A stretch of DNA of 64,000 nucleotides from Tessaracoccus rhinocerotis (GTDB lineage Bacteria; Actinomycetota; Actinomycetes; Propionibacteriales; Propionibacteriaceae), in NCBI RefSeq assembly GCF_007197885.1, contig NZ_VKKG01000003.1, forward strand, positions 62,001-126,000, read 5' to 3'. The notes below the pieces were generated by a model. That model was not told the DNA's origin. It ran no database searches and saw only the letters and a program-made list of their open reading frames with translations. A program made the position numbers and the translations under genes. Shown piece by piece: positions 57,399 through 62,868 of the stretch. Each line of letters starts with the position of its first letter. The first letter of the stretch is position 1.

Positions 57399-57420
57399 GG
57401 GCTGCGCGTCCGTCGGTGCG

Positions 57421-57457
57421 TGGAGCGGACGGCTCCGTCTCCGGTGCTGTCCGCTCA
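57421..57457. repeat. 38-bp palindromic element, copy A
   Basis: Copy of a repeat family whose arms are TGGAGCGGAC and GTCCGCTCCA around a GGCTCCGTCTCCGGTGCT centre. Here the right arm lacks one base (GTCCGCTCA). It lies 22 bases after the aspA stop and 7 bases before the stop of the DUF559-type gene, where it could act as a terminator. Confidence 0.8.
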
Positions 57458-58390: not shown

Positions 58391-58441
58391 GTCCGCACTC
58401 TGGTTGTGCGGGATCCGGGAACTTCTTTGTCCACAGGTCGG

Positions 58442-58479
58442 TGGAGCGGACGGCTCCGTCTCCGGTGCTGTCCGCTCCA
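58442..58479. repeat. 38-bp palindromic element, copy B
   Basis: Perfect 10-bp arms TGGAGCGGAC and GTCCGCTCCA around the centre shared with copies A and D. It lies 52 bases before the DUF559-type start. Confidence 0.85.
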
Positions 58480-58502
58480 CGTCGGGTGGTCGGGTTGGTG
58501 AG

Positions 58503-58540
58503 TGGTGCGCTCGGCTCCGTCTGCGGTGCCGTCCGCTCCA
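58503..58540. repeat. 38-bp palindromic element, copy C (diverged)
   Basis: Same length and centre (GGCTCCGTCTGCGGTGCC) with a changed left arm (TGGTGCGCTC) and an intact right arm (GTCCGCTCCA). It lies 10 bases from the stop of the HAF-repeat gene and only 23 bases from copy B. Confidence 0.75.
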
Positions 58541-58549
58541 CCGGGCCGG

Positions 58550-60001
58550 TCAGCTGAACTTCACGATGTTGTTGAAGACCCACATGCTCTCGACTGTGTA
58601 GGTGTAGCCGCCGCCGGGTTTGGGTGTGGCGTCGGCCACGCGGGCGAACACGTAGCTCCGACAGCCGTTCTTGCCGGTGGTGGGGGTGTCGCACTCGGTG
58701 CGCCACTTGCGGCCGTCGTCGGCGGTCCACTCGCCCGTGTTGCCCAAGGGGTTCCTGGCCCAGAGGCTGCGTGGGCTCGGGGTGTAGGTGAGGTTGTTGA
58801 AGGCCCAGTCCGTGACGCGGGAGTAGCCGCCGTTCTTGTACTGGACCTGGGTGGCCACGATCTCCGTGCGGCAGCGGGTGGTCCGGGAGTACGGTTCACA
58901 GGCGGTCTTCCAGGCGCGGCCGTTGAACCGGTGGTAGCCGGGTGCGGTGTAGATGGTCTCGGCGGTGCTCGGGGTAGCGATGAAACCGCGGTACGTCCCG
59001 TCGGCAAGACGTGCGGAGCCGACGATCTGGCCCGAGGCGTTGATGCCGTTTACGGAGGTGAGGGTGTAGCCGGCGCGCTGGGCGGCGAAGGCGTTCAGGT
59101 CGTGCACCACGCCGTCGACCCAGACCACCGCCCGGGAGTCGGCGTGGTTCGCGGTGCTCGAGGTACCGGCCAGAGCGCCGGAGTTGTTGATCGCATTGGC
59201 ACAGGCGCTCGGAAATCCGGCGAGTGCGGGCAGCTTCGTGGCTGCTCCGGCGGCGGTGAAGCGGAACGCGTTCTGCACCCCGCCGATGGTCGCGCATCCG
59301 CTCGAGGTGCCGGCGTCGTTCACTGAAGCCAGGTGCGCGGCCGTTGCGCCCGTCGGCAGGGCGAGGAGCTTGCCGACGCCGTCGGTCCAGAGCGCCGGGA
59401 CGGTGGCGCTGCCTGCCTGCGCGGTGCCCACGACGTGGCGACCGTCGTCCGAGATGCCCACGCCACTCGGCGAGGTGGAGCCTGCCGGGTCGGGGAGTGC
59501 GGTCAGGGCGGTCGGGCTGGTGACGGTGAACACCTGGCTCGACGTCGCGTACACGGTGAAGACGGCCTTGCCCGTCTCCGAGATCTGGCCGACCCTGCTG
59601 TAGGCGCCCTCGTGCTGGATCGCGGTGCCGGTGCCGTCGGCGTACCAGAACGTGCTGGGCTGGCCGACGGCCCAGTTGCCGACGATGGTGCCGTCGCCCG
59701 CGACGTCGAGCTGCTGCGACGCCGGGAACTGTGGCGCGAACGCCGTGCCGTGGCCGGTTCGTGACTTCCATAGGGTGGCGTGGCCGCCGCCGTCGATCGT
59801 CAGGCCGGTCGGCTCCGAGGAGCCCACGACGTCGCCCCGGGCGTTGATGCCGGAGGCGTGGGAGTTCGGCAGACCGCCGACGGGCTGGAGCAACATCACG
59901 GCGTACGACGGTGGGGTCGCGGCGTGGGCGGGCTGTGCAGCAAGCACGCTGCCCCCCACGACGAGTGCGCCCGTGGCGCACATGGTAAGGAATCGCTTCA
60001 T
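58550..60001 (-). CDS. Secreted HAF-repeat protein with duplicated Cys-pair C-terminal domain
   Basis: Exported protein of 483 residues. The signal peptide is MKRFLTMCATGALVVGGSVL...AHA. Residues 35 to about 330 carry HAF-type beta repeats (INARGDVVGSS, ISDDGRHVVGTA, INNSGALAGTS, INASGQIVGSARLADG), as in bacterial surface or secreted proteins of unknown function. The last about 130 residues hold two related modules, each with a Trp and a close Cys pair: WKTACEPYSRTTRCRTEIVA and WRTECDTPTTGKNGCRSYVF. The ATG has GGAGG upstream. Its C-terminal 410 bases are almost identical to those of the neighbouring paralogue. Confidence 0.78.
   Translation of the reverse strand: MKRFLTMCATGALVVGGSVLAAQPAHAATPPSYAVMLLQPVGGLPNSHASGINARGDVVGSSEPTGLTIDGGGHATLWKSRTGHGTAFAPQFPASQQLDVAGDGTIVGNWAVGQPSTFWYADGTGTAIQHEGAYSRVGQISETGKAVFTVYATSSQVFTVTSPTALTALPDPAGSTSPSGVGISDDGRHVVGTAQAGSATVPALWTDGVGKLLALPTGATAAHLASVNDAGTSSGCATIGGVQNAFRFTAAGAATKLPALAGFPSACANAINNSGALAGTSSTANHADSRAVVWVDGVVHDLNAFAAQRAGYTLTSVNGINASGQIVGSARLADGTYRGFIATPSTAETIYTAPGYHRFNGRAWKTACEPYSRTTRCRTEIVATQVQYKNGGYSRVTDWAFNNLTYTPSPRSLWARNPLGNTGEWTADDGRKWRTECDTPTTGKNGCRSYVFARVADATPKPGGGYTYTVESMWVFNNIVKFS
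58557..58967. repeat. Direct repeat of about 411 bp, copy 1
   Basis: Encodes the C-terminal domain of the first HAF protein. It is nearly identical, without indels at a constant offset of 1,585 bases, to 60142-60552. Confidence 0.85.
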
Positions 60002-60134
60002 CGGGAGTCCCCCTCCATTGGTAGGTATCCGAGTTAACGCCTATGGGTGGGGGTTTGGTGCACAGTCGCGACAAACTCGTCGCCCGCCGACGGCGTCCAG
60101 CCACCCGTCAGGTGCGTCGCCGGACGGTGGTCGA

Positions 60135-61600
60135 TCAACCGAACTTCACCATGTTGTTGAAGACCCACATGCTCTCGACTGTGTAGGTGTAGCCGCCGCC
60201 GGGTTTGGGTGTGGCGTCGGCCACGCGGGCGAACACGTAGCTGCGGCAACCGTTCTTGCCGGTGGTGGGGGTGTCGCACTCGGTGCGCCACTTGCGGCCG
60301 TCGTCGGCGGTCCACTCGCCCGTGTTGCCCAAGGGGTTCCTGGCCCAGAGGCTGCGTGGGCTCGGGGTGTAGGTGAGGTTGTTGAAGGCCCAGTCCGTGA
60401 CGCGGGAGTAGCCGCCGTTCTTGTACTGGACCTGGGTGGCCACGATCTCCCTGCGGCAGCGGGTGGTCCGGGAGTAGGGCTCGCAGGTCGTCTTCCAGGC
60501 GCGGCCGTTGAAGTCGTGGTAGCCGGGTGCGGTGTAGATGGTCTCGGCGGTACTGGGGGTCGCGATGTAGCCGCGGTTCGAACCGTCCGCTAGCTTGGCA
60601 AGTCCAACGATCTGGCCTGCGGCATTGATGTCCTCTGCGGTCTGAAGGCTGTACCCGGATCGGTTGGGGACGAGGGAGTTCAGTGCACGCGCTTGACCGT
60701 TGACCCACAAGGTCGCCTTCGAACCCGCGTCCCCGACGATCACCCCATCGTTGTTGATCGCCTTGGCGCAGACGTCCGTCGAGCCGGGAAGCGGACTCAG
60801 TTGGCTGGGCTTACCGTCGGCAGCGTAACTCCAGGTTGCCTCGTTCACGTGATACGGCCAGTCATACATGTCGCTGCCGCAGGCAAGGAAGGCCCCGGAG
60901 TCGTTGACGGAAGTGACTCCCAGGAAGTAGCCGTGCGTGGACGATGGAGAGGTGAGTTCGGAAAGCACCCCATCGTCCCAGCGCAGGGGATTCTGCGGCG
61001 CGTACCAGGCGTCTGGGTCGTCCAGGACGGCCCCGGTGACCACACGGCCATTCGGTGAAATGGCTGTCGCGGCGCTTCCCTCAGCATGTGCGGGCAGCGG
61101 CGTCCGCTGGGTGGGGCTGGTGGCGGTGAACGTGTCGCCGGCGACGCTGATGAGAGCCACTCCACTCTCGGAGATCCCATATGCAAAGGCTCCGCCTTCC
61201 CCCTCGCGTTGGATCTTGGTGAGTGTGCCCTGCTCGTACCAGTAGGAGGTGTTGGACGTGGTGGCGTAGCTGTCCCCAGTCATCACGATGACCCCATTGC
61301 CGGAGATGTCCGCCATCCTGACATATGGCCGAGTGGTGGAGTTGATCATGGAACCGATGCCTGAGCGGGCTCTCCAGAGGGTCGCCGCCCCCCTCTATGG
61401 CTCTGGTGACCCACCGAGAAGCCGACGACATCACCGGCGTCGTTGAGCCCAAGCGCCCCTGCGTTGGACTCTCCGGCGGCTGGCTGTAGCAGCATCACCG
61501 AGTACGACGGTGGTTCTGCGGCCTGGGCGGGTTGGGTGGTCAGGATGCTGCTGCTGACGACGAGTGCGCCGGCCGCGCAGGTGGAAAGGAGTCGCTTCAT
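60135..61600 (-). pseudogene. Second HAF-repeat paralogue, frameshifted in a homopolymer
   Basis: The start (MKRLLSTCAAGALVV, signal peptide, then EPPSYSVMLLQPAAG) is at ATG 61600 with GGAGG upstream. At 61388-61393 a run of six G (minus strand) puts the frame out by one: the upstream frame ends at the TGA at 61346, while restoring one G gives ATLWRARSGIGSMINSTTRP and the rest of the protein, matching the intact paralogue (HATLWKSRTGHGT). The downstream frame from 61349 to 60135 is open and ends in the same duplicated Cys-pair domain. Either it is a pseudogene, a phase-variable gene or a sequencing error. The repaired product would have 488 residues. Confidence 0.75.
60142..60552. repeat. Direct repeat of about 411 bp, copy 2
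   Basis: C-terminal domain DNA of the frameshifted HAF paralogue, almost identical to 58557-58967 while the rest of the two genes differs widely. This suggests recent duplication or gene conversion. Confidence 0.85.
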
Positions 61601-61696: not shown

Positions 61697-61734
61697 TGGA
61701 GCGGACGGCTCCGTCTCCGGTGCTGTCCGCTCCA
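61697..61734. repeat. 38-bp palindromic element, copy D
   Basis: Identical in sequence to copy B over the full 38 bases. It lies between the HAF paralogue start and the endonuclease IV stop. Confidence 0.85.
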
Positions 61735-61754
61735 CCGAGCGTCTGCCAGCCGAA

Positions 61755-62568: not shown

Positions 62569-62658
62569 CTTGCGGCGCTCCCTGCGTTCGCCACCGTTTC
62601 GTCGGTTCGCCGACGCCAGAGCGTTGGCAAACCAACACACTGTTGGTGCAACGGCTGG

Positions 62659-62851
62659 TGGGGTCTCGACACGGTCGCGGGGCGACCTACTCGACCGGCG
62701 GGGTGGGGTGGGGTCTCGACACGGTCGCGGTGCGACCTACTCGACCGGCGGGGTGGGGTGGGGTCTCGACACGGTCGCGGGGCGACCTGCTCGACCGGCG
62801 GGGTGGGTGGGGTCTCGACACGGTCGCGGGGCGACCTACTCGACCGGCGGG
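62659..62851. repeat. Four tandem copies of a 50-bp unit in the gene-free stretch 62556-62868
   Basis: The 313-base gap between nfo and the DHA2 exporter gene contains a short unique segment (to about 62655) and four copies of a 50-base unit (last one 49), starting near 62660, 62710, 62760 and 62809. Each reads GGGGTCTCGACACGGTCGCG, then GGGCGACCTACTCGACCGGC and a G-rich joint. Within each is a small GGTCG/CGACC hairpin. Single-base changes occur (G to T at 62731; A to G at 62789). The unit resembles a repeat common in actinobacterial genomes. There is no coding potential here. Confidence 0.85.
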
Positions 62852-62868
62852 GCGCTCGAACCCGGCGG

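Follow-up and report, generated by a model that had tools for sequence, protein, structure and literature searches.

The question raised by this locus is why two neighbouring genes for secreted proteins would keep one end almost unchanged while the remainder differs strongly, and whether the broken reading frame of one of them is a switch, a mark of decay, or an error of the draft sequence. The two genes, termed A and B, are arranged in tandem on the minus strand of the window, i.e., the whole 64-kb stretch of DNA that was analysed. Their layout is as follows.

58550..60001, minus strand: gene A, 483 amino acids, composed of a signal peptide, a HAF-repeat beta-propeller and a C-terminal module (based on the open reading frame, family TIGR02913 and an AlphaFold2 model)
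59918..60001, minus strand: signal peptide of gene A, MKRFLTMCATGALVVGGSVLAAQPAHAA (based on the sequence and a heuristic score)
58970..59917, minus strand: HAF-repeat beta-propeller part of gene A (based on TIGR02913, the AlphaFold2 model and propeller matches in the PDB)
58553..58966, minus strand: module copy A, with a predicted new fold, 138 amino acids modelled
60135-61600, minus strand: gene B overall, the same kind of protein as gene A, split into open frames of 84 and 404 amino acids
61346..61600, minus strand: 5' open frame of gene B, 84 amino acids, with the signal peptide and the first HAF repeat, out of frame afterwards
60135..61349, minus strand: 3' open frame of gene B, 404 amino acids, with the rest of the HAF part and the module (TIGR02913, 25.8 bits)
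60138..60551, minus strand: module copy B (96.7% identical to copy A at the DNA level)
61388..61393, minus strand: run of six G (C6 on the plus strand), coinciding with the frame break of gene B or adjacent to it

The preliminary description had taken A and B for secreted paralogs, and signal peptides as well as HAF-repeat propellers are indeed found in both genes. With TIGR02913 (HAF repeats), gene A scores 39.6 bits and gene B 25.8 bits, both above the curated cut-off of 22.65, and the model of the gene A protein (pLDDT 80.8) matches propellers in the PDB, for instance, virginiamycin B lyase and PknD. The N-terminal parts of A and B are HAF-repeat proteins of this family that are predicted to fold as beta-propellers, while their C-terminal module lies outside of it. 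When the DNA of the two genes is compared in 90-column windows, identity amounts to 40–67% across most of the N-terminal two thirds, to 73% over the signal peptide and to 89–100% over the last approximately 410 nt; thus, both the strong divergence of the N-terminal parts and the nearly unchanged stretch of about 411 bp are located where they had been described. The two module copies share 96.7% DNA identity (over 399 nt) in comparison to a median of 65% for 2011 module pairs of the same genome, because of which their likeness is far from chance. The gene pair is flanked by a REP-like 36-nt palindrome, GGAGCGGACGGCTCC..GTCCGCTCC, at 57420-57456, 58440-58478, 58502-58540, and 61699-61735; 12 copies of it (at most 3 mismatches), often in doublets 61 bp apart, are present in the own genome, and none was detected in the 36 relatives searched. 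Four tandem 50-nt units of GGTGGGGTCTCGACACGGTCGCGGGGCGACCTACTCGACCGGCGG are found in an intergenic region at 62657-62852.

The split of gene B had been interpreted as phase variation, with slippage in the G6 run turning the gene on and off. Run and break are found as placed, and the arithmetic of the proposal is correct, since one base added to the run (1466 nt + 1) restores a continuous frame of 488 amino acids. Variable G/C tracts affecting the frames of surface proteins are, moreover, known from Cutibacterium acnes of the same family; there, however, the tract changes followed clades and were interpreted as slow accumulation rather than active switching (PMC4746626). The mark of a phase-variable contingency gene would be an unusually long simple repeat, whereas the tract of gene B is a short and ordinary G6, one of 14 G6/C6 runs in the window. 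Intact homologs of gene B are present in other species, and in six of these no G6 run is found at the corresponding position. In comparison to gene A and the intact homologs, the break region furthermore lacks 7 nt, and a frame-aware alignment accommodates one or two indels, depending on the penalty; because of the net deficit, the loss of a single G would be just one among several readings of the sequence. Other module-bearing genes of the genome (L056, L082, L087, and L088) are also broken, in each case outside homopolymers. Switching by the G6 run is, in sum, very improbable. Most of the places marked by the coding-potential scan for frame breaks were overlapping stop/start pairs and were set aside; only cases that were re-examined have been used here. 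One of these, L087, contains four frame breaks; the gene region (L087:13034-15138, minus strand) includes two module pieces and is likely a pseudogene.

Sequencing or assembly error, leaving both genes intact in the organism, would be in line with the draft state of the assembly (49 contigs) and with the isolated single frame breaks in several other module genes. The four breaks of L087, however, resemble those of a real pseudogene, and a deficit of 7 nt exceeds the typical homopolymer error, so that this explanation is considered possible, though rather doubtful. As judged from the sequence, gene B is most probably a copy that is in decay or was inactivated recently, or else one affected by a small assembly error, and not a phase-variable switch; decay and draft error together are far more likely than switching.

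The shared C-terminus is not private to A and B. With gene A as query, a search of the own genome, that of a Tessaracoccus of the family Propionibacteriaceae (3.55 Mb in 49 contigs), led to 67 places, nearly all of them matching only residues ~344–483, within open frames of up to 2365 amino acids. By iterated profile search over the fetched loci, 65 open frames with the module were collected, and the A/B pair is one copy pair among these about 65 genome copies. The module is located at the extreme C-terminus in 46 of the 65 proteins, mostly with the motif WVFNNxVRF within 3 residues of the protein end, directly after the signal peptide in 18, and in the middle of the protein in one. According to a simple heuristic, 50 of the 65 proteins possess a clear signal peptide; most of the others are truncated at the edge of the fetched region, have a wrongly assigned start or contain a frame break.

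It had also been proposed that a shared domain beside variable partners permits recombination, and this idea is supported by the recurrence of such pairs. The sole other module pair of the own genome comparable to A/B belongs to two neighbouring inverted nuclease genes (99.5% DNA identity). In T. antarcticus, a tandem pair of HAF-propeller genes carries modules that are 99.5% identical over 400 nt next to an upstream part of approximately 36% amino acid identity. From these three pairs, homogenization of the module between neighbouring genes would be a recurrent process, brought about either by gene conversion or by a recent duplication of the module sequence. In the case of A and B, recombination between the neighbours would preserve the near-identity of the module despite the divergence of the propellers.

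The cargo of the module comprises glycosidases of families GH10, 20, 35, 43, 53, 59, 101, and 127 and amylase/pullulanase, phosphoesterases, CAP proteins, and lectin-like domains, as well as nucleases, a 5'-nucleotidase, and HAF propellers. Behind an N-terminal module, glucose/sorbosone dehydrogenases, an LRR protein, an NlpC/P60 protein, peptidases of the M14 and M15 families, and a C5-epimerase-like protein are found. At L063:995-6384 (minus strand), the module is located at the mature N-terminus of the products of three consecutive genes, of which two code for glucose/sorbosone dehydrogenases. The common trait of the cargo, as far as it can be read from these assignments, is secretion and not substrate.

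A single conserved domain on dozens of unrelated secreted proteins of one lineage, mostly at the very C-terminus, is reminiscent of the C-terminal domains of type IX secretion in Bacteroidota. The module might, by analogy, be a secretion or assembly signal, either of this kind or dockerin-like, that is read by a dedicated machinery or scaffold. The differences are considerable, though: 18 of the 65 copies are N-terminal, the cargo proteins have ordinary signal peptides, the host is a Gram-positive actinobacterium, no NCBIfam family is matched, and no scaffold is seen. A role as secretion or assembly signal is, for these reasons, regarded as quite unlikely.

The module itself comprises approximately 135 amino acids in two tandem half-repeats, GRxWxTxC...RCxT...WxFNNLTY and GRxWxTEC...GCRS...WxFNNxVxF, with four invariant cysteines and further invariant W, R, and N residues. 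It is modelled by AlphaFold2 as an all-beta structure (pLDDT 94.1, pTM 0.82). Searches of 21 members against Pfam revealed no convincing family; the best stray match, thaumatin with an E value of 0.005 in one of the 21, was discarded. NCBIfam yielded no family for the module, the PDB no sequence match even with a profile of 94 sequences, and viral contigs no relative. Foldseek comparison of the model with the PDB and viral models gave no match at E ≤ 0.001, the best being 0.025; OB-like matches were dismissed as chance, with TM values to the query of at most 0.26. The fold is therefore predicted to be new against the PDB and viral models. No account of this module, or of a terminal LPXTG in this family, was found in the literature searched.

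The distribution of the module is narrow. A scan of 84,980 prokaryote species produced 340 pattern matches, among which 300 module relatives were confirmed; all 78 readable relative loci belong to Tessaracoccus, "Arachnia" or metagenome-assembled genomes of Propionibacteriaceae/Propionibacterium. Whole-genome searches detected the module in 15 of 39 Tessaracoccus genomes, of which 14 have many copies and one a single copy. No copy was detected in 159 genomes from 28 other genera of the family Propionibacteriaceae, nor in a sample of 395 other genomes from the whole phylum.

What the module may do is best approached through enzymes that occur both with and without it. Of the 39 Tessaracoccus genomes, 34 encode the 5'-nucleotidase to which the module is fused in the own genome. 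Among the 30 C-termini read, the module is present in 11 and a PxTG tail, mostly PGLP(S/R/K)TG-x-stop, in 17, the tail being found in module-lacking species and in two module-bearing ones. The nucleotidases L175 and L176 (genomes G033 and G021) end in HKPGKPHKPG-type repeats, with neither module nor LPxTG. The gene tree of the enzyme requires about six changes of the C-terminus type, four to five of which are forced by well-supported branches; the exchange has, therefore, happened repeatedly. An LTD-type nuclease ends in the module in seven of 11 copies from module-bearing species and in the tail in none of these; in module-lacking species, PxTG is located at most 4 residues from the stop in seven of 15 copies, with close variants in six more. 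In further cargo families, the alignment with tail-bearing proteins runs up to the linker that precedes the module.

The tails themselves are unusual. At the DNA level, as many as 16 occurrences of the pattern GLPxTG-x-stop are counted per genome versus 0–4 for a reversed control; other genera of the family show the pattern as well, at a low level. In module-lacking Tessaracoccus, up to 16 proteins per genome end in the helix-less PGLPxTG-x-stop tail after Pro/Ser/Thr linkers (L212, L227, L238-L257, and others). A classical sorting signal would consist of LPXTG, a membrane helix, and a basic tail, whereas the module-lacking orthologs terminate one to a few residues after PGLPxTG; since the membrane helix is absent, these tails are not classical sorting signals. 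Wall anchoring would, nevertheless, be a plausible role for them. For the related C. acnes, reviews mention a sortase of class F, for which 19 LPXTG substrates are predicted (PMC8200545, PMC7913060). Classical LPXTG proteins (PF00746), considered as the alternative anchor, were rejected, as only 0–2 per genome are found in module-bearing and module-lacking species alike. Sortase genes are present in all 39 genomes and, hence, do not separate the two groups. Tail counts average 2.2 in module-bearing and 5.2 in module-lacking species (Mann-Whitney p = 0.053, not significant, the species not being independent), and a lower tail count in the former is only suggestive; module and tail coexist in several species.

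The comparison with sortase substrates that carry an LPXTG sorting signal (PF00746; SrtF of C. acnes) is instructive. Like this signal, the module is spread over many unrelated secreted proteins and, on orthologous enzymes, occupies the same place, namely, the C-terminus after a Pro/Ser/Thr linker; the purpose would presumably also be the same, i.e., retention at the wall. Different from it, the module is a folded domain of 135 amino acids that may also be N-terminal, is devoid of an LPXTG motif, a membrane helix, and a basic tail, and ends in WVFNNxVRFx. The replaced Tessaracoccus tails deviate from the sorting signal, too, in that LPxTG is separated from the protein end by one to a few residues and no membrane helix follows. 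Reuse on many secreted proteins, placement at either end, and lineage specificity are features that the module has in common with the noncovalent wall-binding modules SLH, CWB2, GW, and LysM. It differs from these by its two tandem half-repeats with paired cysteines and by the lack of a Pfam or structural match; none of the 21 members matched SLH, CWB2, GW, or LysM in Pfam even at an E value of 1.

Since the module stands in for a sortase-type tail on orthologous enzymes, can act from either terminus, and is found both on enzymes active on peptidoglycan and on unrelated ones, it would be an envelope-binding domain. With fair though not full confidence, it is interpreted as a mobile protein module by which secreted proteins are kept at the envelope of the cell in a subset of Tessaracoccus species. 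Its ligand would probably be a wall-linked polymer, and it would achieve noncovalently what the tail achieves by sortase or an equivalent. A different function as carbohydrate-binding domain, taking the secreted enzymes to their substrate instead of to the cell, would count against an anchor and is suggested by the many glycosidases among the cargo and by an all-beta fold with many conserved W, N, and R residues. The module is, however, also carried by nucleases, the 5'-nucleotidase, NlpC/P60, M14, M15, CAP, and LRR proteins, and HAF propellers, and on the same enzymes it takes the place of a sortase-like tail, which makes substrate targeting an unlikely explanation.

Summarizing, the module shared by A and B appears to be an undescribed, lineage-restricted alternative surface anchor. 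The more far-reaching scenario, in which a new fold that is restricted to a part of a single actinobacterial genus, and has expanded there to about 65 copies per genome, has repeatedly replaced a helix-less PGLPxTG tail as envelope anchor in a changeover that is still in progress, is put forward as an even chance. If true, it would represent an unrecognized way of holding enzymes on the Gram-positive surface. Since sister species have the same enzymes, with the module in one case and the short tail in the other, the two anchors would be directly comparable, and the helix-less PGLPxTG tail is worth attention in itself. The module would, furthermore, serve as a label for predicting the surface proteome of these bacteria, which here amounts to about 65 proteins, and, as a small display module that probably contains disulfides, it would invite a search for its ligand.
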